IMG/VR virus record: IMGVR_UViG_3300044960_000268 | Coordinates: 1 to 56,352 of that record | Source: a virus | Strand: one strand, 5' to 3' | DNA length: 56,352 bases | Shown here: positions 15,513 to 52,324 of the stretch, piece by piece | Position numbering within the stretch: the stretch's first letter is position 1 | How the letters are laid out: the number at the start of each line of letters is the position of its first letter | Position numbers and translations under genes: made by a program | The notes under the pieces: model-generated | Databases searched by the model: none | The model's input: the letters and a program-made list of their open reading frames with translations, nothing else | What the model was told of the DNA's origin: nothing

Positions 15513-16222
15513 GAAACCACCTTCTCATAAGGGAAAGAGTCGCGTACGGTCTTCCATCCCTTCTGCTTGCTGCGCTCGGCGCGAATGCGTTTGATAGCGT
15601 GCGCGTCTTCGACGCTCTTTCGACCGAACTCTTTAGGCGTTGATGCGTCTGGAGTATGCTCTCGCCCAACTCTGATAAGTATGAGGGGCAGCTGCTTGAC
15701 GGCTGACGCTTTGAGCATCACTCGATCTCGGAAATCCCAATCGGTTCCGTAGTACCCCGCGAAACGCTCATCGTATCCTCCCACTTCGTCATATAGCGCC
15801 TTGGTCAGAAACCAGGAGTTAGGATGGAACTTGTACGGTTCGAATGTCTGATCGTTGACGCGAGAGAAACGATAAGCGATGCGAGGATCCAGGCGATTAC
15901 TGAAAAGGAGAGCTGACAAAGTATCGTTGGGAATAAGATGATCCATGTCAGTCAGAAACACCCATTCGTGACGGGCATGCTTGACACCGATGTTGCGACA
16001 AGCGTCTTGGTTCCACCTTACATCGACTTTCATTCGGAAAAGCTGAAACTCGAACTTCCCTTTTGTAGGGGGAACCGCTGGATATCTAGGCGACCCATCA
16101 TCCACAACAATGTACTCGAGGCGTTCTTGGACTTGTGGGTTGTACTGATTGAATTGATGGTATTGCCGCCTCAGCATTACCGGGTTCTCGTAGTAGGCCA
16201 TGACTACGGTGATCTTATGCAT
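15500..16222 (-). CDS. Family 2 glycosyltransferase
   Basis: 240 aa from ATG 16222 (AAGGAA upstream; overlaps the previous stop by 8 nt). GT2 features: ITVVMAYYENPVMLRRQ at the N-terminus, EYIVVDDGSPR, NQDACRNIGVKHARHEWVFLTDMDHL with the DxD, and GGYDERFAGYYGTDWDFRDR. The last is the acceptor-side ED-like motif of galactosyltransferase-type GT2 enzymes. Cytoplasmic, no membrane segment. Sugar and acceptor unknown. Confidence 0.85.
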   Translation of the reverse strand: MHKITVVMAYYENPVMLRRQYHQFNQYNPQVQERLEYIVVDDGSPRYPAVPPTKGKFEFQLFRMKVDVRWNQDACRNIGVKHARHEWVFLTDMDHLIPNDTLSALLFSNRLDPRIAYRFSRVNDQTFEPYKFHPNSWFLTKALYDEVGGYDERFAGYYGTDWDFRDRVMLKASAVKQLPLILIRVGREHTPDASTPKEFGRKSVEDAHAIKRIRAERSKQKGWKTVRDSFPYEKVVSWPF

Positions 16223-16820
16223 GGTTGAATTCCTTCGTAGAGATAAGAGGAATAGATTTAGACCATCGGCTGTCACTCACAACCGTAACTTTGATGCCAA
16301 CCTCTATGAGCTGAGCAATCATCAACTCCATTTGCTTCGCCCATTCTTTGTACTTCCCCTCTTTCGTCGCTCCTTTAGGGGACCACGGATAGGGATCGTA
16401 CCAGTAAGGCTCACCTTCCGGACTGCGGCCCATGTCAAATCCAAACATCCACAGATGGTCAGGTTTGAGGTGGTAGACTAGGTTGAGTGCGCACGCTCCG
16501 CTATTAGATCCGTGGAGCGTATCGATTGAAGTGGAGAAGACATGCTTCTTGTCGTTACCTTTGAACCGCGTCAGCTTACGCCACGTCGATCCTCCTCGAT
16601 CCCATACATTCTTACATGCTGAGTCACGAAGCCACGTCCATTGATCGAAAGCAAGCAGCTTATCCCATCGATACTCTACCCATAGTCGATCCATAGAGAT
16701 GACTGTATGGACTTCGGGAAGGTGTATCGCCGCATCGTTCACGGCGATGATCTGGCCTTTGAGCTTCGTCGGCGAGATGTTCCGGAATGACCATCCGCCA
16801 GCAACGATAGAGATAGTCAC
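16215..16820 (-). CDS. DUF115 / glycosyltransferase-like protein
   Basis: 201 aa from GTG 16820, which overlaps the upstream stop (GTGA) and has GGAGGAA five bases before it; an earlier GTG at 16832 is less well placed. The N-terminus TISIVAGGWSFRN is a nucleotide-binding start, followed by IAVNDAAIHLPEVHTVISMD and the late motif SGACALNLVYHL...WMFGFDM. This pattern is seen in DUF115-like and related phage proteins near transferases. Catalysis is not proven; it may be a transferase or a sugar-nucleotide-processing partner. Confidence 0.6.
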   Translation of the reverse strand: MTISIVAGGWSFRNISPTKLKGQIIAVNDAAIHLPEVHTVISMDRLWVEYRWDKLLAFDQWTWLRDSACKNVWDRGGSTWRKLTRFKGNDKKHVFSTSIDTLHGSNSGACALNLVYHLKPDHLWMFGFDMGRSPEGEPYWYDPYPWSPKGATKEGKYKEWAKQMELMIAQLIEVGIKVTVVSDSRWSKSIPLISTKEFNHA

Positions 16821-17434
16821 CACTTCCTCCACACGATCCGATCACATTTTGTAGATCGTTGAATGACCTGGGTAGCCCGGAAGTAACGCTCGAGCTGCTT
16901 GATCCATTCCTTCCGGTTGTGACGGACATCGACTATGAGAACAGAGTCTCGACTTGTACGGGAAGCGACGAAGTCAAGATAGTCGTCAGGCGGGAAATGG
17001 AAGCACCAGCTTTGAAGGGAGAAGACTAAGTCGAAATGCATCAACGGAACTTTATCGAGCGTATCCGGCGTAAAGTATCCCGCAAGTTGAGCATTATTCA
17101 CTTGCCAGAAGTCGCGCGTTACAGCGCCTGAATTGAACGTCTGGGCGTGTTTCTCGACAACTGAGTCATCATCCTCACCGTCAAGCAAATACGCCTCAGC
17201 GCCGTCCCAGAAGCGTTTAAGGAGGATCCCGACACCCGACAGTCCCGATCCCACGTCAAGGAAGGACTTTACATGACGCGGTGAAGCGAGTTGTATAGCG
17301 TTAGCATCCTTCGAAATCGAATGATGGTACAACGTCAGCCATGTCGGTAGATCGTGCGAATAGTCCCATAGAGCGCCTCGTTGCAGTTGCAAGTAGCGCA
17401 GATGGTCAGTATCAATAATGAGGCGATTGCTCAT
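16817..17434 (-). CDS. SAM-dependent methyltransferase
   Basis: 205 aa from ATG 17434 (ATGA overlap with the small membrane gene). Class I methyltransferase: SAM motif SFLDVGSGLSGVGILL, acidic motif AYLLDGEDD, then HFDLVFSLQSWCFHFPPDDYL and SVLIVDVRHN. No target-recognition domain for DNA is visible, so a small-molecule, glycan or protein acceptor is likelier. Part of the transferase operon. Confidence 0.78.
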   Translation of the reverse strand: MSNRLIIDTDHLRYLQLQRGALWDYSHDLPTWLTLYHHSISKDANAIQLASPRHVKSFLDVGSGLSGVGILLKRFWDGAEAYLLDGEDDDSVVEKHAQTFNSGAVTRDFWQVNNAQLAGYFTPDTLDKVPLMHFDLVFSLQSWCFHFPPDDYLDFVASRTSRDSVLIVDVRHNRKEWIKQLERYFRATQVIQRSTKCDRIVWRKW

Positions 17435-17565
17435 GGCCCCACCGTAACCGTCCAATTCTCCCACCAAGCTACGAAGGTGAACCAGGCCCACATGGTTTTT
17501 GCAAGGGCGGCGACTCCTACGAAGATGGTGAACCCGATCACGTCATTGAGAAGCTTCTTTTTCAT
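17431..17565 (-). CDS. Small single-TM protein in transferase operon
   Basis: 44 aa. ATG 17565, stop overlapping the next ATG (ATGA). Basic start MKKKLLNDVIG followed by a membrane segment (FTIFVGVAALAKTMWAWFTFVAWW), Trp-rich. The tight overlap supports real translation. It could anchor or couple the neighbouring transferases to the inner membrane. Function unknown. Confidence 0.6.
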   Translation of the reverse strand: MKKKLLNDVIGFTIFVGVAALAKTMWAWFTFVAWWENWTVTVGP

Positions 17566-17574
17566 GGGGCATCC

Positions 17575-18864
17575 CTATCTCTTTATGATCCACATCATCA
17601 GTTGATGGTCGACCAGCTCTGTCTTTTCAATCGTCCAGCCGCCCCATCTCTTGACCCTTTCGATCCACCAATTCGCATCATGCACCGTGATGTGGGCATT
17701 CCTTCCGTCAGGCAGTATCTCCTTCGCCGGCCGAGTAGCGATAGCGAGAAATACGCCTTTACCGGCGAGCGTGTAGATATGATCGATCACGTTGTCAAGC
17801 TTGCTTTCTTCGACGTGCTCGAATACGTCAGTGCACACGACTAGATCACAAGGCTTTGGCATCCCCCGTCGGTGCTCGATGCCGGGATCATAGCACGAGA
17901 CGCGGATAGGAGGATCGAGCTTCGCCAGTTCGATGCGCAATGTTTCCTGACCCGATCCATAATCGAGACAAGTAGTACACTCGAGACGGCGGTAGAACTC
18001 GGCGACCTTTGCCGCGTACTTTCTTCCACTGACACCCCACCCGCTCTTGTTAGGCTTCTTGTCTTTGGATCCTAGCAACGCCTCCTTGTGCATCTGCGAT
18101 AGCGTCTGCATGTAGGAAGTCGACACCAGGTCTTCGATCTTATGGCGATAGGATCCTCCGTGCCTCATAAACATCCCTAGATGGCCGAGATCCATCGCCC
18201 ACAGGCCCTTCTGGGCGAGGCGCCAAGCGAGGATTGTCGCGGTGGGTCCAAGGCAAATGAGTATGGGGCCCGAGGGTTGGCCTACCTCTTCCTCGATGCG
18301 ATCAATCTCGCGGTAGGCGTTAGTCCGCGGGCCCCATACTTCTCGAACGCTCCTCGCCTCCGCCTTGATGGCGTCGGGTCGAAGTGAGCGCAATCCTCCG
18401 ATCACCAAAGTAACGTCTCGATCAACCCAGAGCGTCTTGACCTTATTCCAGTAGTCAGCCGTGTCGATCCACGGAGCGCTGTCGGGGCGAGTGATGAACG
18501 AAGATACGTATTTGGGTTGGGTATACAAAGAGCAGATATTCGTTGTCGCGAATTTCGACCAGGACGCTCGCTTAGGAGTTTCGCTGAATACGTTGGGGAT
18601 GCCTACAAGGCATTTGCCGGGTTCGCGCAGCACGAGACGCAACTCGTCGCGCAGCTTATCACTGTATTCTCGCTGCGATACGCAGGTTCCTCCCAGCGCA
18701 AGGTTGATCTCTCCGTCTCCATATCGTGCGATGGAGCTTCCGCGAGTGATCAAGTCCAATGTCGTGTATTCATCGATCACCTCTGGGTATACTCCGACGG
18801 TTCCTTTACCAATGCGAGTTCCAGGCAGAGGTCCATACTTCTTCTGTTGCTTGTTGACCTTCAT
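17575..18864 (-). CDS. GT-D-like glycosyltransferase fused to methyltransferase
   Basis: 429 aa from ATG 18864 (GGAGGATCGA upstream; ATGA overlap with the FkbM gene). Residues ~15-275 resemble GT-D fold transferases: SSIARYGDGEINLALGG, ECLVGIPNVF-like KCLVGIPNVFSE, VTLVIGGLRS and PILICLGPTATILAWRLAQ. Residues ~300-429 form a class I methyltransferase: TCLDYGSGQETLRIEL, VVCTDVFEHVEESKLDNVI. A two-enzyme chain transferring sugar and then methyl is suggested by the fusion; the acceptor is unknown. Confidence 0.75.
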   Translation of the reverse strand: MKVNKQQKKYGPLPGTRIGKGTVGVYPEVIDEYTTLDLITRGSSIARYGDGEINLALGGTCVSQREYSDKLRDELRLVLREPGKCLVGIPNVFSETPKRASWSKFATTNICSLYTQPKYVSSFITRPDSAPWIDTADYWNKVKTLWVDRDVTLVIGGLRSLRPDAIKAEARSVREVWGPRTNAYREIDRIEEEVGQPSGPILICLGPTATILAWRLAQKGLWAMDLGHLGMFMRHGGSYRHKIEDLVSTSYMQTLSQMHKEALLGSKDKKPNKSGWGVSGRKYAAKVAEFYRRLECTTCLDYGSGQETLRIELAKLDPPIRVSCYDPGIEHRRGMPKPCDLVVCTDVFEHVEESKLDNVIDHIYTLAGKGVFLAIATRPAKEILPDGRNAHITVHDANWWIERVKRWGGWTIEKTELVDHQLMMWIIKR

Positions 18865-19493
18865 TCGATCCTCCAGATGATGTCTGATCCCGCGTGCGCT
18901 ACTGGTCGATACCCCCAGCCCCTGATCATCTTGACAAGATCCTGGTACCGGTCGAACCACCCGAAATCCTTACGCGCCTCTTCGATCAGGAGAACCGGCG
19001 CATATCGAAGGATAGTGGAATAGGCTCCACGCAATGCGAAGAGTTCATGCCCTTCGATGTCCAGCGCAATCAAGTCACAGGCATCCAGCTGCAAGCTATC
19101 GATTGTGATCCCGGGACAAGGACCGACGCCTTCGCCTACCCTCCAATCTCCGACGTTGACGCATCCGTTGTGATCAGTAAGCACCGCTCGCATCGGATAC
19201 ACATTGGGAAGAAAAGCGTTCAGCGTAAGACAGCGAAAGAAGTGGGGGTTAGGCTCGAAGGTATAGACGCGGTCAAAATGCTTAGCAAGCCACCGCGGAT
19301 AGGCACCCATGTGGCCGCCTGCTTGAATAACGACACCTCGACGTTGCACGAAAGGTAGGACAGCTTGCATCGTCTCAGCATGGCGGCGATAATACGTCCC
19401 AAACGTGCGCCCATCATGCACTGCCCATCCATCCTCGAGATGCAAGTCACGAAGGGCCTCGCAAGGAGGCATCATCTCATTTTTGAGTTTCAT
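18861..19493 (-). CDS. FkbM-family methyltransferase
   Basis: 210 aa. FkbM features: VVIQAGGHMGAYPRWLAKHF SAM motif, VYTFEPNPHFFRCL, and GITIDSLQL with DLIALDIEGHE near 150. FkbM enzymes O-methylate sugars and natural products. First clear member of the transferase operon; overlaps the preceding small gene by 17 nt. Likely methylates a glycan or glycosylated product made by the adjacent transferases (inference). Confidence 0.83.
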   Translation of the reverse strand: MKLKNEMMPPCEALRDLHLEDGWAVHDGRTFGTYYRRHAETMQAVLPFVQRRGVVIQAGGHMGAYPRWLAKHFDRVYTFEPNPHFFRCLTLNAFLPNVYPMRAVLTDHNGCVNVGDWRVGEGVGPCPGITIDSLQLDACDLIALDIEGHELFALRGAYSTILRYAPVLLIEEARKDFGWFDRYQDLVKMIRGWGYRPVAHAGSDIIWRIE

Positions 19494-36130: not shown

Positions 36131-36835
36131 ATGAATATCGTGGTTGAGGGCCCCGATGCCTCGGGGAAGACTACGCTTATTGGGAAGTTAGCTCCGCTGC
36201 TGGGGCTGTCAGTCGTCAAGAGTGAGGGGCCTTGCGTCGATATTCATGACTTCCGCCAGCGTTGTCAGCAATTGTATTCGTTGAAAAATGTCATCTTCGA
36301 CCGGCATTGTCACGTCAGCGAACCCATCTATGGCTATTTTGCCAAACGCTATGACACTGTCGATTACAGCCTGATTGCGCTGATCCGTCGAAACCCCCCT
36401 CTGTACATCTATTGTCGCGGCCCCGCCACTCTAGACCGCCACGTCGCTGATCACTCCAAGGATAGCCCAGAGCACTTGGCGATGATCGAACGCCATCATT
36501 CGGAGATCCGGTACTCTTATGAGCGATGGGCAAACGCCAATGCTCACATCTGGTACACCATTGGCGATGAGAGAAGTGGAGCTCCTGAAGAGACGGCGGA
36601 GGAACGTCATCGGCGATACTTCCTCTACCTGGTCTCTTTGATCAATCACCTGAAATGGGAGACAGCAAATGGATTTCGACCCGTTCAAGGACATCATCGA
36701 GTTCCACGAGAAGTTCGGATTGAAGTACGAAGGTCCGCCTCGAGTTCTTCCTCCGTCTCTCGCTCAGTTCCGAGAGAAGTTCATAAGGGAAGAGTTTCGC
36801 GAGTACCTGTCCTCAGCTTGCCAGGCACGAGATGA
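36131..36835 (+). CDS. P-loop nucleotide kinase (thymidylate kinase-like)
   Basis: 234 aa as read. P-loop VVEGPDASGKTTLIGKL at 4-20, DRHCHVSEPIYG (DRx/substrate motif), LIALIRRNPPLYIYCRG and a lid-like RHSK-type region (RHVADHSKDSPEHL). Resembles dTMP and phage deoxynucleoside monophosphate kinases. After HLKWETANG (~residue 182) the last ~55 residues overlap the next gene in another frame and are Ser/Arg-rich, so the functional end may be near the overlap start. It probably phosphorylates a dNMP made by the neighbouring enzymes. Confidence 0.82.
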   Translation: MNIVVEGPDASGKTTLIGKLAPLLGLSVVKSEGPCVDIHDFRQRCQQLYSLKNVIFDRHCHVSEPIYGYFAKRYDTVDYSLIALIRRNPPLYIYCRGPATLDRHVADHSKDSPEHLAMIERHHSEIRYSYERWANANAHIWYTIGDERSGAPEETAEERHRRYFLYLVSLINHLKWETANGFRPVQGHHRVPREVRIEVRRSASSSSSVSRSVPREVHKGRVSRVPVLSLPGTR

Positions 36836-37139
36836 GTTGAACGGGGTTACCAAGTCCTTTGACGACGAGGTGGCTTTCCATCTTGAGCATGCGTTGGATG
36901 CCCTCGTAGATCTCGTCTATGTGGTTCTCGGCACCGCTTACTTGCATGGGTTCGATTTCCGAGAGGCGTGGCGTCGCGTTCATGCGGCGAATATGGCTAA
37001 GACGAGGGCTCCCTCCTCGTCAGACTCCAAGAGGAAGAACAGACACGACGTGATCAAGCCCCCCGGATGGCAGCCCCCCCGCCTGCGGTCCCTCGTTATA
37101 AACCACGCTCATCAGATGCATTCTAAAAAGGCTGCCTGA
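36669..37139 (+). CDS. MazG/HisE-like nucleotide pyrophosphohydrolase
   Basis: 156 aa; GGGAGACAGCAA upstream. Helical all-alpha pyrophosphatase: KFIREEFREYLS (ExxE), HALDALVDLVYVVLGTAYLHG (second metal motif DxxYV) and AWRRVHAANMAKTR. The ending with DVIKPPGWQPPRL is typical of phage PRA-PH/MazG-like proteins. Such enzymes hydrolyse dNTPs and can remove unmodified nucleotides. Starts 167 nt inside the kinase frame. Confidence 0.85.
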   Translation: MDFDPFKDIIEFHEKFGLKYEGPPRVLPPSLAQFREKFIREEFREYLSSACQARDELNGVTKSFDDEVAFHLEHALDALVDLVYVVLGTAYLHGFDFREAWRRVHAANMAKTRAPSSSDSKRKNRHDVIKPPGWQPPRLRSLVINHAHQMHSKKAA

Positions 37140-37140
37140 G

Positions 37141-37305
37141 ATGTTGATCGACTTCAACCTTGCGCTCTTTCTCGGCGCTACAGTCTCATTAGCTTCCTAT
37201 CTTCTTGGTTGGTGGGTAGGATGGCGTTCCGGCTGGGAAGAGGCAATGGAGAAGGTCACTCTTGAGGAAGTCTGGGGCGATCATCCCAATCTCCCGAAAT
37301 CATGA
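37141..37305 (+). CDS. Small single-TM protein
   Basis: 54 aa, starting one base after the MazG-like stop and ending with an ATGA overlap into the next gene. Membrane segment LALFLGATVSLASYLLGWWVGW followed by an acidic amphipathic tail. The coupling on both sides supports translation. Function unknown; unusual in a nucleotide operon. Confidence 0.65.
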   Translation: MLIDFNLALFLGATVSLASYLLGWWVGWRSGWEEAMEKVTLEEVWGDHPNLPKS

Positions 37306-38162
37306 AACGCTATTGGATCAAGTTTGCCCTTCAATTGGCGGGGCAACCCGCCGATTTTTATTCAGGCGCTCGTAAGATCATTCGTAACGTTCATTGGACT
37401 CTTCCATGGGAAGAAGTCGATGATTTGTCATTGGCGGATGCGGGGTTCAAGTCAGCGAAGCTCGCCCAGTTGAGGCGGAACTACATCCACAGTGAGTCGA
37501 TCAAGGCAGCGGCTCAGCTGTGGGAAGGTCGCCTTAAGCGGAACAAATACGGTAGTGTGGGTTTCCACTGCTTCAACCACTACATCAAAGGAACCGACAA
37601 AAGCCATGAAGAGTTTCTAGCTGCCGAACGTGCGGGGATACGTCAACGATCCAAACGCGCTAGCGTCATGGGTCCTTGTATCCAGTCGGTGTCTATCACT
37701 CTTCTTCCTAACTCACGAACTTCTGTGGACTTATTCTATCGTACCACGGAGTTGTTTAAGAAATTTCCAGCTGATCTGGTTTTCATACGAGATGAGCTTC
37801 TCGCTTCCTTCGACTTCACGTCCGCACCCATCGATCATCTCAATTTCCATTTCGCCAATGTGACTTGCCATCCGATGTACTTCGTCACCTTACTGCCGAT
37901 CCTGAAGTCTCCCATCTTCGCCATGGTCAAGATAAAGAACCGAGACCCATACTTTCATGATTGGATGGTGAAGTGGACGGCTCGCTATCTGTGTTCTGAG
38001 TACATGCGAGGTATACAGAAGTTCCAGCAGGCATTGCGAGTTCGCAAGGATGCTTTAGAGAGACTAGACGAGAGTTTACTCCTTGAGATCCAGTTATACT
38101 TGCGCGACAACCATCCGGGATACCGCAACGACTACGAGGATCCTGATGAAGAGAAGGATTGA
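37302..38162 (+). CDS. Thymidylate synthase-fold protein 1 (putative dNMP hydroxymethylase)
   Basis: 286 aa, ATGA overlap at the start. By eye it follows thymidylate synthase: GPCIQSVSITL aligns with the catalytic-Cys APCHAFFQF, DLFYRTTELFKKFPADL with CQLYQRSCDVFLGLPFNI, and DHLNFHFANV with GDTHLYSNHMD. The Asn that reads dUMP appears as Asp (FPADL), as in dCMP-specific hydroxymethylases. So it may act on dCMP or a modified substrate. It is highly divergent, and assignment needs structure prediction. Confidence 0.55.
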   Translation: MKRYWIKFALQLAGQPADFYSGARKIIRNVHWTLPWEEVDDLSLADAGFKSAKLAQLRRNYIHSESIKAAAQLWEGRLKRNKYGSVGFHCFNHYIKGTDKSHEEFLAAERAGIRQRSKRASVMGPCIQSVSITLLPNSRTSVDLFYRTTELFKKFPADLVFIRDELLASFDFTSAPIDHLNFHFANVTCHPMYFVTLLPILKSPIFAMVKIKNRDPYFHDWMVKWTARYLCSEYMRGIQKFQQALRVRKDALERLDESLLLEIQLYLRDNHPGYRNDYEDPDEEKD

Positions 38163-38355
38163 ACCGGGCGACCGTGTGGTCTGCATCAATGATCGACCAT
38201 TCCGCCATGAGAACGTCTATGGCTTGACAAAAGGGGAAGTCTACACAGTAGCGAGTGTCATATGCTCAGGGGCGGGGCTAGTTCTTAAAGAGCTTGATCC
38301 GTTCCCGTTGAAGGGCTTCTACGCTCATCGCTTCGAGAGGGTTACATCATGCTGA
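38146..38355 (+). CDS. Small SH3-like barrel protein
   Basis: 69 aa from ATG 38146 (GAGGATCCTG upstream), overlapping the genes on both sides by 17 and 7 nt. GDRVVCINDRP, GLTKGEVYTVASV and HRFERV are the strands of a small beta-barrel common in phages near replication genes. Function unknown, possibly nucleic-acid binding. Confidence 0.7.
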   Translation: MKRRIEPGDRVVCINDRPFRHENVYGLTKGEVYTVASVICSGAGLVLKELDPFPLKGFYAHRFERVTSC

Positions 38356-39224
38356 TGATCTTCCATGACAAGTTCCCTGAAGTAGTCACCCACTTGATCC
38401 GGATGTTTGATCATTCGGGAAAGTGGGTTCATCCGCATCGTTGGCAAGGAGTGGACGTTCAAAAGCGCCCAGAAGCGCTTATGCGAGAGTTAGTCAATGT
38501 CACAATCGGGTTCTACCTCCAAGGGAACATGAACCTCGATTATTGGCAATCAGAGGTAAAGCCCAATCTCCCTTGGGCGGATGATCATTTTGAAGAACGA
38601 GTTAGCGGAGCCCCCCTCAATCCCGGAACCCAGTGGAAACACTGGCCTTGGGCGAACAGTGCAGACAACTTCCGGGAGGCCGGTCAATTCAACCACACCT
38701 ACATGGAACGTTTCTGGCCGAAGTATGCCGGAATTCTCACGGGCGAACTCAACACTGTGGAAGATTTTCATTCTCGTCTGAATAATCTCGATGAGTCGAA
38801 TGAAGGGGGCATCGATGAGCTTCGAGGCATTCGCCATTCCTATGGCGATCTCGAGGATGTAGTCAAGCTTCTGATCAAGGATCCTTTCACACGTCAAGCT
38901 TATCTTCCGATATTCTTTCCCGAAGATACCGGAGTAGGCGACGGGGGCCGGAAACCCTGCACTCTGGGTTATCAATTCATTCGGCGGGAGAACGAGATGC
39001 ATCTCTACTATCCGATGAGATCATGCGACTTCGTTCGCCATTTCCGCGATGACGTCTATCTCGCCATCCGCCTTGTTCTGTGGGTCCTTCACCAGTTGCA
39101 TGTTCGATCCCCGTGGGCATGGAGAAATGTTCTGCCAGGACAATTCATAATGCACATGACCAGTCTCCATATGTTTGTCAACGACTGGCATCGGTTGACT
39201 CAACATCACGGGGAGAAGGTTTGA
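38349..39224 (+). CDS. Thymidylate synthase-fold protein 2 (putative dNMP hydroxymethylase)
   Basis: 291 aa. TS pattern: RQAYLPIFFPED, catalytic-region RKPCTLGYQFI, MHLYYPMRSCDFVRHFRDDVY aligning with the QRSCDVFLGLPFNI segment, and MTSLHMFVNDW aligning with THLYSNH. The dUMP-reading Asn is again Asp (RDDVY). Clearer than protein 1. Either dCMP hydroxymethylase-like or a divergent TS; two such genes in tandem suggest dedicated pyrimidine modification. Confidence 0.68.
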   Translation: MLMIFHDKFPEVVTHLIRMFDHSGKWVHPHRWQGVDVQKRPEALMRELVNVTIGFYLQGNMNLDYWQSEVKPNLPWADDHFEERVSGAPLNPGTQWKHWPWANSADNFREAGQFNHTYMERFWPKYAGILTGELNTVEDFHSRLNNLDESNEGGIDELRGIRHSYGDLEDVVKLLIKDPFTRQAYLPIFFPEDTGVGDGGRKPCTLGYQFIRRENEMHLYYPMRSCDFVRHFRDDVYLAIRLVLWVLHQLHVRSPWAWRNVLPGQFIMHMTSLHMFVNDWHRLTQHHGEKV

Positions 39225-39735: not shown

Positions 39736-40197
39736 TTGCGTATCACTCGGCACCAGATGTTTATGGAGATCGCTCGCGTCGTTTCGAAGCGTAGTACGTG
39801 TTTTCGCCTCAACGTGGGCGCTATCCTCGTCCAAGACAATCGCATCATAAGCATGGGCTACAATGGTGAACCGCCTGGGTATCCCCATTGCTCTCGCCCG
39901 TGCAATGCGGGTGAGTGCAATACTATCCACGCCGAACGAAATGCGATTGATCACCGAGCGGTGACGAAGAACTGCGGTAAGATAACCCTCTATGTCACTG
40001 ATAGTCCTTGTGCTTCCTGCGCTCAAGCTATCATCGATGCGGGTATTCATCGAGTGCTCTTCTCCTCCTTCTATCGCGACCTTAGCCCCGTTTCTCTTTT
40101 GATTACAAACGGCATTCCTGTTTATCGCATACTCCCCAACGGTTGTGTGATCGATATGGCTACAAATCGAGTGATGACTCCGGAGGAGCTTCGATGA
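39736..40197 (+). CDS. dCMP deaminase
   Basis: 153 aa, TTG start at 39736 with an excellent AAAGGAGGG. Zinc site HAERNA and SPCASCAQ, substrate loop GYNGEPPGYPHC, and the extra CSRPCNAGEC cysteines typical of dCMP deaminases. Converts dCMP to dUMP, feeding thymidylate or modified-pyrimidine synthesis. No ATG is available; the strong ribosome site decides the TTG. Confidence 0.93.
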   Translation: MRITRHQMFMEIARVVSKRSTCFRLNVGAILVQDNRIISMGYNGEPPGYPHCSRPCNAGECNTIHAERNAIDHRAVTKNCGKITLYVTDSPCASCAQAIIDAGIHRVLFSSFYRDLSPVSLLITNGIPVYRILPNGCVIDMATNRVMTPEELR

Positions 40198-40321: not shown

Positions 40322-42961
40322 ATGGACCGCACGTGCGCTAGGAGCTGCATAGATTGCAAGCTCCACAGAACGGCGAGCATCGTCGGAATCCTCGGCGTTG
40401 GACCTGATCCGTGTGATGCTATGATTATTGGGGAGGCTCCGAACGAACAAGGCGAGCCCTTTGTTGGGCGCGCCGGTCGCCTCCTTAGTGAAATAATGGA
40501 GACTGTAGGTCTTAATCGTCGGAAGGTTTTCATTACCAATGCTGTCTCTTGTCGGCCTCCTGACAATCGCACTCCCACCAAGGGCGAGGTTCGCGCGTGC
40601 AATCGATGGCTTCAGTATCAAATCAAACACGTTAAGCCCAAATACGTCCTTCTTCTCGGCAATACGGCATTACAGTCGATTACCGGAGCCTCTGGTATAA
40701 AGAAAGTTCGTGGCCGACCTTTTGAGCGAAACGGTATCATCTATCTCGCAACGTACCATCCCTCATTCATTCTTCGAGACGATACACAGCGCCCGTATCT
40801 CGAGCGAGACCTGCGTCTCTTTGCAACGATCATCAAAGAAGGGGGGATCCCGCGAGAGAAGGAACTTAACTATACAGTCGTGCGCAATCGTGCGCAATTC
40901 GATCTCATGATAGAAGACCTTAGGGGTATCATATCCTTCGACCTTGAAACATCTTGCCTTTATCCGTGGCAGAAGGTCAATGAAAAAGGTCAAAAAGACC
41001 CTGCTCGCATCAACACTATAGGCTTCGGAACAAAGCATCATCAATGGGTCTTACCAATTGCCCACAGGGAGTCACCTTGGAATGAAGACGCAATCGACGG
41101 AATGATAAGGGAGATCGACTCTATCGTCCCTCGTTGCCAGCTGGTGATGCATAACGGAAAGTTCGACGTTCTGTGGATGGCAGTCCATTTCGGTGTCTGG
41201 TGGAAAAATCACTTCGACACTATGCTGGCTCATTACGCCTTAGACGAGAATAGCGAACATGGACTCAAGAAGCTTGCGCAACGCTACTGCGGAGCTCCTG
41301 ATTGGGACATTGATGCTAGCGCTAAGAAGGGCAACTCAACACTCGATCAACTCGCATTGTATCAAGCTCATGACCTCTACTATACTCGGCTTCTCCGGTT
41401 CCTTTTCTCTGATAAGCTCAGTGAGGATCCTCAAGTTGAACGAGTGTTCGCCCGCATCTTGATGCCGTGCTCCCGTCTGTTCACGGAGATCGAGTACGAG
41501 GGTATCTACGTTGACCACACGAAATTCGATCAGGCTGAGACCGCATTGCGTGAGGCGATGGCCGCCTCTAAAGCAGAGCTTGACAAATTCCTCGAAGGTT
41601 TACCCGCCTCTGCTCGTCAGACTTTCAACTGGGGCTCTACAAAGGATCTTCGCTTCTTGCTCTTCGATCACCTGAGACTACCTGTCATTGAGAAGACAAG
41701 GGGCGGGGTTCCCTCATGCAATGAGAGCGTGCTTAAGCGCATCGATCATCCAATTGGATCAGCGCTCATCAAGTTCAGAGAAGCGAAACAGCAGCTCTCC
41801 TTTTTCATCGAAGGATGGAAGCCTTTCCTCCACAAGAAGCGACTTGAAGGACGAATGCACTACTTCCTTCATCCTTCTTTCAAGATCCACGGTACAGTCA
41901 CAGGGCGATTGTCGTGCGAGCACCCCAATCTTCAGCAAGTTCCCCGCGACAAGCGAATTAGGTCATTGATCACTGCCGAACCAGGTTGGACGTTAGTTGA
42001 GTGCGACCTTTCGCAAATCGAGTTGCGTATCGCAGCTGAGCTTGCTCAAGAGCCAACGATGATCCACGCCTTTACTCATGGGATCGACGTTCATTGGCTT
42101 ACGACTATTCGTGAGATTGAACGAGGTGCTGGTCAGCGGGATCTCGTGGTTAATACGGCTTTTACGTGGCGTAGGAAGAGGGATCCTGAAGCGAAAGTTC
42201 CGACATATAGTGTAGCCATCCAAGACCTATTGAAGATGGGACCGGATGAGGCGGCAGAAATAAACGAAGCGTGGAAAGAACTGAGGAAAAAGGCGAAGGC
42301 TATCAATTTCGGGTACCTCTACGGGATGTGGTGGAAGAAGTTCAAACGATACGCCTATGATAATTATGGCGTAACCATCAGTGACGAAGATGCAGAGGCT
42401 TCCCGTACTTTCTTCTTTTCGACCTATAGTCGCTTAGAGGACTGGCATAAAGCCCAAAAGCGTTTCGCCAGACGTAACGGATACGTGCGCACGCTTAGTG
42501 GTCGCAAGCGTCGATTGCCGGATGCTACTCACATCGAGGACTCGCCGGCACGCGCTGCCGCTGAACGTCAAGCGATCAATTCACCAGTGCAATCGTTCGC
42601 CAATGAACTCAATCTCATGGCGGCGCTCCAGCTACGCAAAGAGTTCAGTCGATCCATCGTGCGCATCTGTGGAACTGTCCACGATGCTATCTTGATGCGA
42701 GTCAAGAACCCATATATTGAACGGGTCACCTCTCGCCTTCTCGAGATCATGAAACGTCCAGCTCTGCTCGATGAGTGGGGCATTGAACTCCGAGTTCCCA
42801 TCGAGGCCGAAGCGAAGATCGGTCCATGGGGAGATAGCGTATCATTCGAGAAGTGGAGAAAAGAGCATGTTGGAGTTTCTGATCTTCCTCCAGAGAATGA
42901 GGGACGAGCAAAGCAACAGCGTGCGGATCGTGCAAGAGCACATCCTGAAAAAGTATCTTGA
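40322..42961 (+). CDS. Uracil-DNA glycosylase (family 4) fused to family A DNA polymerase
   Basis: 879 aa. Residues ~1-175 are a family 4 UDG: iron-sulphur cysteines C9, C12, C77 and C93, motif GEAPNEQGEPFVGRAG at 37-52, and H146 in YHPSF. Residues ~195-360 are the 3'-5' exonuclease (D207/E209; N278 and D282; Y347/D351). Residues ~380-850 are PolA: motif A CDLSQIELR (D562, E567), motif B KAINFGYLYG (K659) and motif C VHDAI (D788), where the usual HDE reads HDA. No 5'-3' nuclease. An insertion (~585-650) separates motifs A and B. It replicates phage DNA and may excise or sense uracil. Confidence 0.93.
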   Translation: MDRTCARSCIDCKLHRTASIVGILGVGPDPCDAMIIGEAPNEQGEPFVGRAGRLLSEIMETVGLNRRKVFITNAVSCRPPDNRTPTKGEVRACNRWLQYQIKHVKPKYVLLLGNTALQSITGASGIKKVRGRPFERNGIIYLATYHPSFILRDDTQRPYLERDLRLFATIIKEGGIPREKELNYTVVRNRAQFDLMIEDLRGIISFDLETSCLYPWQKVNEKGQKDPARINTIGFGTKHHQWVLPIAHRESPWNEDAIDGMIREIDSIVPRCQLVMHNGKFDVLWMAVHFGVWWKNHFDTMLAHYALDENSEHGLKKLAQRYCGAPDWDIDASAKKGNSTLDQLALYQAHDLYYTRLLRFLFSDKLSEDPQVERVFARILMPCSRLFTEIEYEGIYVDHTKFDQAETALREAMAASKAELDKFLEGLPASARQTFNWGSTKDLRFLLFDHLRLPVIEKTRGGVPSCNESVLKRIDHPIGSALIKFREAKQQLSFFIEGWKPFLHKKRLEGRMHYFLHPSFKIHGTVTGRLSCEHPNLQQVPRDKRIRSLITAEPGWTLVECDLSQIELRIAAELAQEPTMIHAFTHGIDVHWLTTIREIERGAGQRDLVVNTAFTWRRKRDPEAKVPTYSVAIQDLLKMGPDEAAEINEAWKELRKKAKAINFGYLYGMWWKKFKRYAYDNYGVTISDEDAEASRTFFFSTYSRLEDWHKAQKRFARRNGYVRTLSGRKRRLPDATHIEDSPARAAAERQAINSPVQSFANELNLMAALQLRKEFSRSIVRICGTVHDAILMRVKNPYIERVTSRLLEIMKRPALLDEWGIELRVPIEAEAKIGPWGDSVSFEKWRKEHVGVSDLPPENEGRAKQQRADRARAHPEKVS

Positions 42962-43070
42962 CAACGATCCCGAAGCAAGGAGCTTTTATGAGCGATACAT
43001 TTCAGGTCAGCCAGAGCAAACTGGAGCGGTGGCGAAAGTGCAGGTACTCCTATCACCTCCGTTACAATGA
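42867..43070 (+). CDS. Small overlapping helical ORF
   Basis: 67 aa from ATG 42867 (GTGGAGAAAAGAGC upstream), overlapping the polymerase end by 95 nt and the nuclease start by 83 nt. The first ~45 residues (MLEFLIFLQRMRDEQSNSVR; YLDNDPEARSFYERY) look like a real helical protein; the end looks like a shadow. Uncertain. Confidence 0.4.
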   Translation: MLEFLIFLQRMRDEQSNSVRIVQEHILKKYLDNDPEARSFYERYISGQPEQTGAVAKVQVLLSPPLQ

Positions 43071-44112
43071 GAAGTTAAGGCCGAAAAGCAAAGGGCGGCC
43101 TCTATACTTCGGCTCGCTCGTTCACTCCATGATCGATGCAGAAGCAAACGGCCGAGATCCCTTCAGTGTTCTCGACGAGATACCTCTTGAAGAACTTCGG
43201 ATGTTCCAGTCAGAGAAAGAGGAATACGGAAACCTGATCGAAGATGTCCGTCATATCATGACCGATTACTTCGATTTCTGGGAGAAAAACCCCCTTGAAT
43301 ATGTCCCGGTGGGGCGACGATACACCGAACATGAATTCAAAGTAGAGGTCTCCCCCGGGATCCTGTGTACGGGAAAGATCGACGCCATCGCTAACTCAAA
43401 TCAGCTAAGATGGCTAGTGGAACATAAAACTCATAAGCACATCCCGAACGAGAACCAAAGATGGCGAAACCTTCAATCCGCTATCTATATTCGCATCATC
43501 GATATGCTTGGATGGGAGCCAGTCGATGGAACATGTTGGGATTACATCCGATCTAAGTCGCCTTCTTATCCACAGGTGCTGAAAAACGGGCAACTGTCAA
43601 AGCGAGGGATCGACTCGTTGCCCTCTCGCGTATTCGACACTCTCGAGAGGCTCCGGATTTCGCCTAAGAAAGCTAGCCATCTCATCGAAAGCGTCATGAG
43701 GAACCGCAAATATTATTTCCAGAGAGTTTTTACCCCGACAAAGCCCAAGTTAGTCGATAGCGTATTTCGTGATTTCGTAGAGACCGCAAAGGAAATGAGA
43801 GAGCTTAGTGAGAAAGTAAAGGCCAAGACTATCGGACGTCACTGTGAATGGTGTGAGTTCGAGCCGATTTGTCGAGCTGAGCTTACCGGTGCTGATGCGG
43901 ACTTCGTAAAAAAGGCAAGGTTCACCCAAGAGAGCAAAGATGAAAAAACCAGTAAAAAGATCGGAAGCGAGCGCGTCCTCCCTAGACGTCCGCCCGGTTG
44001 GCCAGATAAAGCGCCATCTGAGCGTGTGCCTTTACGGTCGAAGCGGAAGCGGAAAGACCACCTTAGCCGCGAGCGCCCCGAAGCCCCTACTTTATCTCGA
44101 CGTGAAGGATGA
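42988..44112 (+). CDS. Cas4/RecB-like PD-(D/E)XK nuclease
   Basis: 374 aa from ATG 42988 (AAGGAGC upstream). N-terminal SQSKLERWRKCRYSYHLRY (first cluster Cys), GSLVHSMID, ILCTGKIDAIA, LVEHKTHKH (the D...EhK core of PD-(D/E)XK) and C-terminal cysteines in HCEWCEFEPICRAE. Together these form the four-cysteine iron-sulphur pattern of Cas4/AddB-like exonucleases. Resects DNA for recombination next to the Sak4-like gene. The last ~55 residues overlap the next gene and are Arg/Pro-rich. Confidence 0.88.
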   Translation: MSDTFQVSQSKLERWRKCRYSYHLRYNEKLRPKSKGRPLYFGSLVHSMIDAEANGRDPFSVLDEIPLEELRMFQSEKEEYGNLIEDVRHIMTDYFDFWEKNPLEYVPVGRRYTEHEFKVEVSPGILCTGKIDAIANSNQLRWLVEHKTHKHIPNENQRWRNLQSAIYIRIIDMLGWEPVDGTCWDYIRSKSPSYPQVLKNGQLSKRGIDSLPSRVFDTLERLRISPKKASHLIESVMRNRKYYFQRVFTPTKPKLVDSVFRDFVETAKEMRELSEKVKAKTIGRHCEWCEFEPICRAELTGADADFVKKARFTQESKDEKTSKKIGSERVLPRRPPGWPDKAPSERVPLRSKRKRKDHLSRERPEAPTLSRREG

Positions 44113-44758
44113 AGGGACGGACTCAATCGCAGACGTCGAAGGGATCGATGTCTTCGATGTGCAGTCCTTCTCCGATTTCGAAGACGTCTATTGGTGGTTA
44201 AAGAAGAACCCCAAGAAGTATAAGACGGTGGTGATCGATACTTGCACGCAATTACAGAACATGGTTGTGCAGGAGATCGGCGGCGAAAAGTCCTCCAAAA
44301 AGGGGAAACAAGCGGGCGATTGGGGTAGCATGACCAAACGAGATTGGGGAGAAGTATCCGCCCTTCTCAAAGAGTGGTTGGTGAACTATCGTGATCTGAC
44401 TAAGCTAGGGATCACCGTGATCTTCATCGCCCAAGATCGCACATTCAACCTCAGTGACGAGGAAAACGAAAACACTGAATTACTGGCGCCTGAAATAGGC
44501 CCAGCCTTGTCGCCTAGCGTTGCGCGTACCTTGAACGCCGCTGTCTCGGTGGTTGCCAACACTTACATCCGTGAACGCACCATCGAGAAAGAGGTCAAAG
44601 GGAAAAAAGTGAAGAAGAAAGTAATCGAGTACTGTCTCGGCGTCGGACCCAGCTCGCTTTACACGCGCAAGGTCCGCAAGCCAAAGCGTAACGAGCTTCC
44701 GGACGTTATCGTAAATCCGGAATTCGATGACCTTGTTGCTCTCACCAGAGGAGAATGA
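43940..44758 (+). CDS. Sak4-like RecA-fold ATPase (single-strand annealing)
   Basis: 272 aa. Walker A CLYGRSGSGKTTLA near 30-43, LLYLDVKDEGTDS, KTVVIDTCTQLQN (Walker B) and TVIFIAQDR. Phage proteins of this type with an adjacent DUF669 SSB and Cas4-like nuclease form recombination modules. Starts 173 nt inside the upstream frame; AAGAGAGCAAAG precedes the ATG. Confidence 0.85.
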   Translation: MKKPVKRSEASASSLDVRPVGQIKRHLSVCLYGRSGSGKTTLAASAPKPLLYLDVKDEGTDSIADVEGIDVFDVQSFSDFEDVYWWLKKNPKKYKTVVIDTCTQLQNMVVQEIGGEKSSKKGKQAGDWGSMTKRDWGEVSALLKEWLVNYRDLTKLGITVIFIAQDRTFNLSDEENENTELLAPEIGPALSPSVARTLNAAVSVVANTYIRERTIEKEVKGKKVKKKVIEYCLGVGPSSLYTRKVRKPKRNELPDVIVNPEFDDLVALTRGE

Positions 44759-46879: not shown

Positions 46880-47201
46880 GAGTCGGTTGCAAAGACGCAT
46901 TCGCGAGGCTCTCGAAGATGAAGTAGGAGGATGGTGGATGAAGGTTCACGGGGGCCCTTTTCAATCGGCGGGTATCCCCGACTTGATCGGTTGCACAGGA
47001 GGGCTGTTTTTTGCTTTCGAAGTTAAAACCCCATCAGGGGAAACCTCGGCTCTCCAGGAAGAGATCATGCGGCGCATTCGACGTGAAGGAGGCGCTGTCG
47101 CCGCCGTTGTCACTACACCCGGTCAAGCCGTCACCCTCGTCAAGTACCATCTGGCAAAAGCTAGACGGCTACCAACGGGAATGCGTGGAGTTCGCCGTTA
47201 A
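46863..47201 (+). CDS. VRR-NUC domain nuclease
   Basis: 112 aa, GTG start at 46863 (GAACGAGG upstream) overlapping the MazG-like gene by 17 nt. VRR-NUC pattern: MKVHGGPFQSAGIPDLIG, FFAFEVKTPSGETS and a final GQAVTLVKYHL. Holliday-junction-resolvase-like PD-(D/E)XK fold; often beside an SNF2-like helicase as here. Confidence 0.9.
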   Translation: MSKKPESRLQRRIREALEDEVGGWWMKVHGGPFQSAGIPDLIGCTGGLFFAFEVKTPSGETSALQEEIMRRIRREGGAVAAVVTTPGQAVTLVKYHLAKARRLPTGMRGVRR

Positions 47202-48696
47202 AGTAAAAACCGCAGGACTCTTTCTTGAACAGGGAACTGGAAAGACCTGGGTCTCCCTTGGTGTCATTGAGCGCATTGTACATCATCAAGCCCTTCTGGT
47301 TGTCCCTCTTGCCAACATCGACTCCACTTGGGCTACTCTTCTTACTAGTGAACTCCCCCACATTACCGTTTGCAGAACGCTTAACGCGCTTCATACAGCG
47401 CCTTTCCCCCGTATCCTGCTAGTGCACTACGAAGGATTACCGAAGTGCCTTAAAAAGGCTCGCAAACTCGATTGGGACTTGATCATTTACGATGAGTCCC
47501 AACGATTGAAATCAAGGGGGACTCGTCAATCTCGCAATGCGGCCCAGCTTGCGAATTGTGCTGAGCACAAGTTGATCCTGAGCGGAACCCCCATCGAACG
47601 TCAACCACAGGACTTGTGGGCGCAATTTCGATTTCTTGCCCCTCACGTGTTCGGAACAAGGTGGGCTGACTTCGAAAACGAGTATCTCGAGCCTATCGAG
47701 ATCGATCCAGGAAAGTACAATCCTCGATCACTCAGATATGCTCAGATGATGAGGAAACTCTTGATTGCCAAGAGTAAGCGAAAGTTCAACAAGGAGAAGT
47801 TGCCACAGTTTCTCGATAAGATCAAACCCTATGCTTTGCGTATTACGGCGGATGAAGTGCTTGATTTACCACCCCTCGAATATCATTGGGTCCGCGTAAG
47901 ACTTCGCGGCGAGCAACGGAAGCTCTATGAGGAGATCGAAGAGAACCTGGTGTCGACTACACTTCGCCTCACTACTCCCTTGAAGGTGACTCAGCGTGGG
48001 AAGCTTCAGCAGATTACTGGTGGGTTCGTGATAGATGATGACGGTCAAGCTCATGCTGTAGGCCAAGCGAAACTTCGCGCATTGAAGCGCGTTGTAGTTG
48101 CAAGTCATCGTCCGATTGTCATATTTTGTAAGTACCTTGAGGAAGTCGATGCGATTCGCAGTGAAATCGAAACGTCACTTGGACGAGTTGAAACTCTTAC
48201 TGGAAGGACCAAGAAATCAAGTCGTGGACCGCTTATCAAGGAATTCCAGTCAGGTAAGATCGATGCCCTTGTCTGCCAAATCAAAACGGGCGGAGTCGGG
48301 ATTGACTTGTATCGCGCACGAGAGGGCATCATCTACTCCCCGCCAGATAGTTCCATCGATTTTGACCAGGCCATCAAACGGCTTCACCGTCGGGGGCAAA
48401 CGGAAAAAGTCCGGATCACGTTGCTGTGGGCCGAAAATACCGTTGACAAATCCGTCTTCCGCGCCTTATTGCAGAAGCGCAATGCTCGAGAGGGCATTCT
48501 AGACCACCTGAGGAGAAAAGCATGGCAAAGAAGGACGAAGTCGCATTCAAGTACACTGTCGAGAACCTCGCCGAGGATCTCGGAGTCCAGCAGCAGACCG
48601 TTCGCATCGGACTTCGCAAGCATGGCATTGAGAAGACCGGCAATGTCTACGGCTGGAACAACGAGAAGGACTACAAGGCGGTCTTGGCCAAGTTGA
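47107..48696 (+). CDS. SNF2-like superfamily 2 helicase
   Basis: Helicase core from about 47150: LDGYQRECVEFAV, Walker A EQGTGKTWVSLGV, IYDESQRLKSRGT (motif II as DESQ), LSGTPIERQPQDLW (III), IDALVCQIKTGGVGIDLYRA (V) and KRLHRRGQTEKVRI (VI). The start is unclear: TTG 47107, GTG 47083 and TTG 47011 are in frame, all within the VRR-NUC gene. After GILDHLRRK (near 48520) the frame runs 175 nt through the next gene and looks noncoding. The VRR-NUC/SNF2 pair may process branched DNA. Confidence 0.85.
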   Translation: MSLHPVKPSPSSSTIWQKLDGYQRECVEFAVKVKTAGLFLEQGTGKTWVSLGVIERIVHHQALLVVPLANIDSTWATLLTSELPHITVCRTLNALHTAPFPRILLVHYEGLPKCLKKARKLDWDLIIYDESQRLKSRGTRQSRNAAQLANCAEHKLILSGTPIERQPQDLWAQFRFLAPHVFGTRWADFENEYLEPIEIDPGKYNPRSLRYAQMMRKLLIAKSKRKFNKEKLPQFLDKIKPYALRITADEVLDLPPLEYHWVRVRLRGEQRKLYEEIEENLVSTTLRLTTPLKVTQRGKLQQITGGFVIDDDGQAHAVGQAKLRALKRVVVASHRPIVIFCKYLEEVDAIRSEIETSLGRVETLTGRTKKSSRGPLIKEFQSGKIDALVCQIKTGGVGIDLYRAREGIIYSPPDSSIDFDQAIKRLHRRGQTEKVRITLLWAENTVDKSVFRALLQKRNAREGILDHLRRKAWQRRTKSHSSTLSRTSPRISESSSRPFASDFASMALRRPAMSTAGTTRRTTRRSWPS

Positions 48697-51606: not shown

Positions 51607-52155
51607 TCAAACACTTCGCAATGCTCTGTAGATGCTTGCCCGTGAACATCGGAGATGGCGTGCCGCCTGAGAGGGGGTAAGATCTGCGCTGACCAGGCGA
51701 CGTACCTCATGAGGATCAATCGTTCGCTTTCTGCCTCTATACTTTCCTTCCTGCTTAGCTTTAGCAATTCCTTCCATTTGACGCTCGCGTCTCAGGTTAG
51801 TCTCGAATTCAGCGAATACCCCCAGCATATCGAGGAAAGCCTTACCCGCTGCGGTTGAAGTATCGATGGGCTGATCCGTTGCCTTTAGATGAACCCCTCG
51901 CTCGCGAAGATCATGCACGATATTCTGTAGGTCCTTTAAGCTGCGGGCGAGTCGGTCGATGCGCGTTACCATCAACGTATCGCCTTCCCTCAGGAATGCT
52001 AGAAGGGTCTCAAGTTCGGTACGTCCTTTCAAAGAGGTGCCACTGATCTTCTCGGACCTGATAGTGTCGCATCCCGCTCGCTTGAGCGCCTCAATTTGGA
52101 TCGTCAAGTCCTGATCGGCACTACTGACGCGAGCGTAGCCAAACATCTTGCCCAT
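51607..52155 (-). CDS. Serine recombinase (resolvase/invertase)
   Basis: 182 aa from ATG 52155 (AAGGAACC upstream). FGYARVSSADQD with nucleophile Ser11, RSEKISGTSLKGR, LMVTRIDRLARSLKDL, ATDQPIDTSTAAGKAF, FAEFETNLRRERQMEGI, then a C-terminal HTH (LTPSQAARHLRCSRASIYRAL). Complete small resolvase/invertase. In a phage it may resolve multimers or flip or delete DNA between sites; a 16-bp palindrome ~155 bp upstream is a candidate site. Own promoter. Confidence 0.93.
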   Translation of the reverse strand: MGKMFGYARVSSADQDLTIQIEALKRAGCDTIRSEKISGTSLKGRTELETLLAFLREGDTLMVTRIDRLARSLKDLQNIVHDLRERGVHLKATDQPIDTSTAAGKAFLDMLGVFAEFETNLRRERQMEGIAKAKQEGKYRGRKRTIDPHEVRRLVSADLTPSQAARHLRCSRASIYRALRSV

Positions 52156-52191
52156 GGCGAGGTTCCTTGTCTCATTTGAGTGTGCGGTGTC

Positions 52192-52220
52192 TAATAACTC
52201 AAAAACCCACCCTATTGCAA
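52192..52220 (-). promoter_or_regulatory. Promoter of the serine recombinase
   Basis: Minus strand TTGCAA (52220..52215), 17-nt spacer, TTATTA (52197..52192). Confidence 0.55.
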
Positions 52221-52308
52221 CTGAAAGGTGTCGCACGAAGAAGAGTCTCGGTAGCGTGTACCCGAATGAGACGCGATTTTTGCCGGCGTGAGGCTTCCCC
52301 GCTCGTAA

Positions 52309-52324
52309 CCGAGTGATCACTCGG
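52309..52324. repeat. Palindrome site B (CCGAGTGATCACTCGG)
   Basis: 16-bp perfect palindrome upstream of the serine recombinase, where res sites normally lie. It shares 15 bp exactly with site A (33982..33996). The rest of 52156..52486 holds no supportable gene. Confidence 0.8.

Follow-up and report, generated by a model that had tools for sequence, protein, structure and literature searches.

Why a phage should carry a uracil-DNA glycosylase (UDG) within its own DNA polymerase, and whether that glycosylase still acts as an enzyme, are the questions raised by the locus described here. The window analysed is a whole virus record of 56,352 bases, and the UDG forms the N-terminus of a protein encoded by a single open frame.

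A family A polymerase with an N-terminal glycosylase domain

The protein and its parts lie at the following positions:

40322..42961, plus strand: UDG-exonuclease-PolA polymerase, single open frame, 879 aa
40334..40834, plus strand: family-4 type UDG domain, about residues 5-171 (PF03167, UDG_fam4 and a match to 1ui0)
40874..41398, plus strand: 3'-5' exonuclease domain (PF01612, DNA_pol_A_exo1), with D207/E209, D282, Y347 and D351 present
41546..42859, plus strand: family A polymerase domain (PF00476, DNA_pol_A) by Pfam, best matches Klenow, Bst and Pol theta
42677..42688, plus strand: polymerase motif C, VHDA, residues 786-789, by alignment

Pfam models placed the UDG at residues 25-156 of the polymerase (PF03167, E = 1.4e-31), the exonuclease at residues 185-359 (PF01612, E = 1.6e-15) and the polymerase from residue 409 on (PF00476, E = 4.1e-72). 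The N-terminal domain scored 144.6 bits against NCBIfam UDG_fam4, above the curated cut-off of 125.3, which excludes chance as the source of the match, and its nearest solved structure by sequence is Thermus thermophilus UDGa (1ui0). An AlphaFold2 model of the polymerase, for which 40 window and locus sequences served as input, had a mean pLDDT of 88.8 and a pTM of 0.83. In a structure search, residues 178-844 of this model resembled Klenow, Bst and Pol theta structures (Z 30-34); Foldseek matches for the full model fall mainly on the same residues, i.e. on the polymerase domains. The phiLo polymerase structure 9qhs does not occur among the matches listed, which carries no information on similarity. 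From its sequence, the protein is predicted to be the replicative family A polymerase of the phage, with a tethered family-4 UDG.

Two other memberships were rejected. The domain scored 117 bits for UdgX against a curated threshold of 189.95, and the KRRIH loop for which UdgX is noted (PMC10359453) is absent from the 879-aa polymerase. For the aminoadenine polymerases (DpoZ), the phage_DpoZ scores reached 91.8 of 500 and 63.1 of 350 bits. Motif C does read HDA instead of HDE, as an earlier note on this DNA had observed, but the suggestion that this marks a specialised enzyme was not borne out, as HDA is found throughout the lineage: motif C is HDA in 64 of 88 relatives, HDS in 21, HDC in one, gapped in two and HDE in none, and UDG-less sister polymerases likewise have HDA or HDS. 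The UDG-less polymerase of M6 has HDE.

The UDG-exonuclease-PolA architecture is already known from the PaBG group, SPO1 gp31 and phiLo. In the PaBG and Lupandier jumbo phages, a UDG, a 3'-5' exonuclease and a 5'-3' polymerase were described in 2020 for all 11 members, and PaBG gp205 has the same N-terminal order as the window protein; the likeness is one of domain order, and the PaBG phages differ in being jumbo myophages (PMC7412058). By BLASTP, their authors found no close phage UDG beyond their own group (PMC7412058). A search of the phage literature on polymerase-fused UDGs found nothing beyond that paper, the accessible parts of PMC7886860, PMC2147016 and PMC11377751 being uninformative on such a fusion. 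When the UDG domain was used as a query against 50,697 phage records, 89 matches were obtained, 62 of them covering at least 80% of the domain; they include SPO1 gp31, Rhizobium phages, phiLo and some free-standing UDGs.

The UDG-like domain of SPO1 gp31, named in the earlier note as a parallel, is real (E = 1e-12; UDG_fam4, E = 2e-31) and precedes the polymerase as in the window. The alignment with gp31 that the earlier note had proposed showed its four cysteines and the N80 equivalent to be gone; its UDG_fam4 score (109 bits) is below the cut-off and the neighbouring thymidylate-synthase (TS) homologue is of the dUMP type, both unlike the window. The polymerase of the Thermus phage phiLo also has an N-terminal UDG on a family A polymerase, in which the CxxC pair, GEAPG and HPSFVLR are kept. 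It differs from the window protein in its length (1175 aa), its long motif 1 with Glu, its gene context and its UDG_fam4 score (69.2), which is below the cut-off. Residues 34-1175 of the phiLo protein match the whole of chain 9qhs_A (2587 bits), from a PDB entry released on 2026-03-25 under the title 'phiLo family-A DNA polymerase with modified template'.

The active site and the motif-1 deletion

Alignment with the UDGs of T. thermophilus and T. maritima placed the active-site features of the window UDG as follows, the roles of N73, N82 and H146 being taken from PMC5387724:

40346..40357, plus strand: first two Fe-S cysteines, C9 and C12
40430..40468, plus strand: motif 1, GEAPNEQGEPFVG, residues 37-49, lacking a four-residue segment with Glu47
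40538..40567, plus strand: N73 (T. thermophilus N80), C77 (Fe-S) and N82 (T. thermophilus N89)
40598..40600, plus strand: C93, the fourth Fe-S cysteine
40757..40759, plus strand: H146 (T. thermophilus H155) in motif 2, HPSFILR

In T. thermophilus UDGa the pocket consists of E41, G42, E47, F54, N80 and H155, with N80 contacting uracil N3/O4 and the water being placed by N89; E47 lies at uracil C5 and bars thymine, and the E47A substitution lowers k2/Km from 2.4e5 to 2.0e3, a drop of about 100-fold (PMC5387724). All four family-4 Fe-S cysteines (C9, C12, C77 and C93) were found in the window UDG, and its counterparts of the T. thermophilus pocket and catalytic sites, E38, A39, F47, N73, N82 and H146, are all kept. 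The window UDG thus shares with 1ui0 the cysteines and the equivalents of E41, F54, N80, N89 and H155; it is fused and lacks Glu47, whereas UDGa is free-standing and has it. Of the features that define family 4, F54, N80, N89 and a motif 2 of the form HPSxxxR with H155 are represented by F47, N73, N82 and H146, and a GE[A/G]PG motif 1 with Glu47 is absent.

At 13 residues, motif 1 of the window UDG is four shorter than the 17-residue version shared by T. thermophilus, T. maritima and 30/30 intact relatives, so that the segment bearing Glu47 has been deleted: GEAP is kept, and the four residues after it, including Glu47, are missing. The earlier note had described a complete iron-sulphur family 4 UDG preceding the exonuclease and polymerase; the fusion is confirmed, while the short motif 1 contradicts the completeness. 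Degraded active-site geometry, which that note would have counted against its reading, is seen in part in the window, where the Glu47 loop is lost, and in full in many relatives.

The window is alone among the 90 rows compared in combining 6/6 sites with a short motif 1. A DNA pattern written for the short motif has a single match in the window and none in the IMG/VR stretches, the window's record and very close ones perhaps having been excluded from that scan. The pattern for the long motif was found in at least 120 IMG/VR stretches, of which, among the matches listed, a script rule classed 25 as polymerase-fused, 80 as not fused and 15 as cut by an end; as both patterns require F-[I/M/V]-G, these counts only sample the family. 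No direct repeat of six or more bases, a source of slippage, was found at the deletion within 40400-40500, and an assembly error is an unlikely cause of a clean in-frame loss of 12 bases.

The deletion could inactivate the window UDG, since the single E47A substitution already lowers k2/Km by two orders of magnitude and loss of the loop may cost more. Glu42 might take the place of Glu47. With the other residues retained and the Glu47 gate gone, we would expect uracil to be excised more slowly and the C5 pocket perhaps to be less tight.

These residues bear on a reading in which the domain functions as a family-4 UDG with no role other than the removal of uracil at the fork, the short motif 1 being tolerated. 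Every residue tested except Glu47 is kept and the UDG_fam4 score exceeds the cut-off, in line with this reading, and the PaBG authors suggest fidelity as the role of their UDG (PMC7412058). However, Glu47 is present in 30/30 intact rows and is therefore not freely variable. Taking this together with the relatives described below, we consider a role confined to repair rather unlikely, though deserving of serious consideration.

Intact, eroded and missing domains among the relatives

Two IMG/VR scans gave 107 distinct loci. The alignment took in 86 of them, namely those whose open frame exceeded 740 aa and did not start at the edge of a contig; the UDG counts do not cover the remaining 21, of which L062, L071 and L073 entered the tree as rows without a UDG. 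Adding Strzyga, PMBT14 and SPO1 brought the aligned rows to 89, PMBT14 being counted twice, as it is also L140. Four cysteines and 6/6 sites were found in 30 rows, termed intact; 18 keep the cysteines with at most 4/6 sites, and 41 are without cysteines, although the placement of motif 1 and of N73/N82 is uncertain in the alignment of eroded rows. Heavily eroded UDG domains are thus present in 59/89 rows, and no row has 5/6 sites. After thinning at 90% polymerase identity, 27 of 71 rows were intact, 13 had the cysteines only and 31 were without cysteines. Six related loci were found in bacterial and archaeal genomes, all in records titled metagenome-assembled. One related locus, L128 (329-3766), encodes 1146 aa in one open frame, some 270 aa more than the polymerase frame of the window, and this extra length suggests that an intact UDG-polymerase has received an insertion, for instance an intein.

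The erosion is confined to the UDG, as the residues of the other two domains are kept: exonuclease D207, E209, D282 and D351 are present in 88/88 relatives and Y347 in 86/88, polymerase D562, K659 and F663 in 88/88, and motif-C H787/D788 in 86/88, the remaining two being gaps. In place of the pocket, the eroded class conserves G113, I126, R130, G131, P133 and D163. The domain is dispensable somewhere, since L062, L071 and L073 have the same operon type with polymerases of 620-666 aa that lack any UDG domain. Replacement of eroded UDGs by another copy was rejected: across 38 related records, no UDG turned up apart from the fused one, which was matched no more than once per record and, in five records with a strongly eroded domain, not at all. 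The lack of a second UDG in these records would also suit a repair role of the fused one; retention of the domain in 59/89 rows despite lost sites argues against repair as its sole role.

In rows without cysteines, the UDG was less conserved than the polymerase in each comparison listed (identity 0.34 v 0.54, 0.37 v 0.56, 0.54 v 0.72 and 0.69 v 0.80), whereas in intact rows the two kept pace (0.54 v 0.51, 0.57 v 0.58 and 0.72 v 0.71). Between the window and intact rows, identity was 0.60-0.65 for the UDG and 0.59-0.62 for the polymerase. These values match those of the intact rows, which argues that the window UDG was still constrained like an enzyme; evolution at the intact-row rate is also what a purely repair-coupled UDG would show. 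Eroded UDGs gave Nei-Gojobori dN/dS values of 0.03-0.21 among the close pairs listed, which include L013-L016, L007-L058, L037-L044 and L027-L028. Synonymous changes prevail, and the eroded copies stay under purifying selection; in a domain within an essential enzyme, such selection may possibly act on folding alone.

The eroded domain of L007, modelled alone, had a pLDDT of 83.4 and a pTM of 0.74. Its best match was a family-4 UDG (4zbx, Z 14.7, 138 residues, rmsd 2.7), followed by 1ui0 (Z 14.5) and the phiLo polymerase 9qhs (Z 11.4); the input alignment held four intact UDG sequences, a possible lean towards the UDG fold. The model indicates a shared UDG fold, and a shared fold is no proof of function.

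On a quick tree of the polymerase part (92 rows, with long-branch warnings), parsimony put the number of switches in the intact label at 11, of which starred branches force four or more; in these counts gain and loss of an intact UDG are indistinguishable. The window clusters with intact L003, L080 and L085 within a starred set of 18 rows, 14 of which lack the Fe-S cysteines. This placement would suit a UDG in early decay, in which the deletion begins a loss that neighbours have already completed and leaves a catalytically dead domain with a structural role alone. It would also fit that the window is the sole row with the deletion in an otherwise intact site, and that no IMG/VR stretch carries the short motif against at least 120 with the long one. 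The cysteines and other catalytic residues persist, however, and as the window UDG is at least as similar to the intact rows as its polymerase is, any decay must be very recent. We regard early decay as improbable.

Operon context and the proposed role of the tethered domain

The genes around the polymerase include the following:

36131..36835, plus strand: thymidylate-kinase-like P-loop protein, perhaps a dNMP kinase (phrog_761, 2.2e-14; weak TIGR00041 match, E 0.0091)
36669..37139, plus strand: all-alpha NTP pyrophosphohydrolase, PRA-PH (PF01503, 3.2e-11)
37302..38162, plus strand: conserved operon protein with no Pfam match (tblastn matches in most loci with enough upstream sequence)
38349..39224, plus strand: TS homologue, dCMP-type hydroxymethylase or methylase (phrog_160, 9.1e-29; Asp in alignment)
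39736..40197, plus strand: dCMP deaminase (PF00383, 1e-24)
42958..44112, plus strand: PD-(D/E)XK nuclease, Cas4-like (PF12705, 8.5e-21; PMBT14 relative annotated Cas4)
43940..44758, plus strand: AAA_24 ATPase (PF13479, 4.3e-26)
47011..48696, plus strand: SNF2-type helicase (PF00176, 1e-25)

The order kinase-like, PRA-PH, 37302-38162 protein, TS homologue, dCMP deaminase, UDG-Pol, Cas4-like, AAA_24, DUF669, SNF2 recurs in most loci and in PMBT14 and Strzyga. These two phages, both isolates, and the uncultured relatives share the window's gene order from the kinase-like gene to the AAA gene; the UDG domains of PMBT14 and Strzyga are eroded, unlike that of the window. The 37302-38162 protein, which adjoins the TS homologue in most such operons, may contribute to nucleotide modification.

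In 80/82 rows, including all 79 group members, the TS homologue carries Asp where T4 gp42 has its Asp; the two rows with Asn are SPO1 gp29 and M6 gp58. We take Asp or Asn at this position (TS N177, T4 gp42 D179) to separate dCMP-type from dUMP-type enzymes. Asp at this base-choice position points to a cytosine product (hmC or 5mC), and the window homologue accordingly appears, as far as this residue points, to make hydroxymethyl- or methyl-dCMP and not hydroxymethyluracil (hmU). Membership of the hmU phages (SPO1, M6) was rejected for the same residue. Hydroxymethyl-pyrimidine chemistry, suspected in the earlier note, is therefore plausible nearby, given an operon with a TS homologue, a dNMP-kinase-like gene, an NTP pyrophosphohydrolase and a dCMP deaminase, though uracil does not look to be the substrate. 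As intact and eroded UDGs occur in the same operon type, this chemistry does not explain the state of the UDG, and the proposal that the domain rejects unmodified bases during copying found no support.

A trimeric dUTPase was found in none of 39 records including the window, in keeping with a repair role for the fused UDG; against this, PRA-PH, a possible dUTPase/dCTPase, is present in 19 of the same 39. Both counts come from records that may be fragments.

The dCMP-type TS homologue also bears on a change of specificity, in which loss of the Glu47 gate would admit hmU or thymine, useful where hydroxymethylcytosine deaminates to hmU. The position of Glu47 at uracil C5, where it bars thymine in T. 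thermophilus UDGa (PMC5387724), would agree with this. However, relatives with the same operon and TS type retain Glu47, and E47A is reported as a loss of uracil activity, with no gain on thymine noticed in the accessible part of PMC5387724. We consider such a change very improbable. Hardly better is the prospect that the gate-deleted, tethered UDG would act on hmU or T at the replication fork in a phage whose hydroxymethylase is of the dCMP type, as a repair activity retuned to a modified genome.

Elsewhere in the window, a glycosyltransferase cluster lies among head genes at 14346-19493 on the minus strand, comprising phrog_1962 (14346-15512), GT2 (15500-16276), GT-D plus methyltransferase (17575-18960) and an FkbM methyltransferase (18861-19493); it could decorate the capsid or modified bases. 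A DNA-invertase-type serine recombinase is encoded at 51607-52320 on the minus strand.

Vaccinia D4, a family 1 UDG without Fe-S, is a separate protein with a partner and works with a family B polymerase, unlike the window UDG. Like the window domain, it belongs to a viral polymerase holoenzyme, D4 and A20 together forming the processivity factor (PMC5682278); this precedent shows that a UDG can serve as a processivity subunit. Purifying selection on the eroded copies, together with the UDG-fold model, argues for a second, non-catalytic role of this kind. We hypothesize a double role, in which a DNA-holding UDG module is kept without catalysis and removes uracil in addition in the intact members, and lean towards it with slight confidence. 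The UDG domain would grip DNA beside the exonuclease and polymerase and help to hold the enzyme on its template, and this holding job would keep the fold alive where catalysis is gone. In phages with a full site, it would also flip out and excise uracil near the fork. In the window phage, the excision job is probably retained yet altered, with the Glu47 gate deleted and the Fe-S ligands still in place, along with E38/A39 for the main-chain contact to O2, F47 for stacking, N73, N82 for positioning the water and H146 for the leaving group.

The fusion itself was known. What the survey contributes is that a large lineage of phage polymerases retains the UDG fold even where the active site has gone, which suggests that, as in poxviruses, a repair enzyme was on more than one occasion turned into a structural component of a replicase. 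Since a single operon type includes intact UDGs, one without the gate and eroded ones, this idea is testable, and the phiLo polymerase 9qhs offers a ready structural template.
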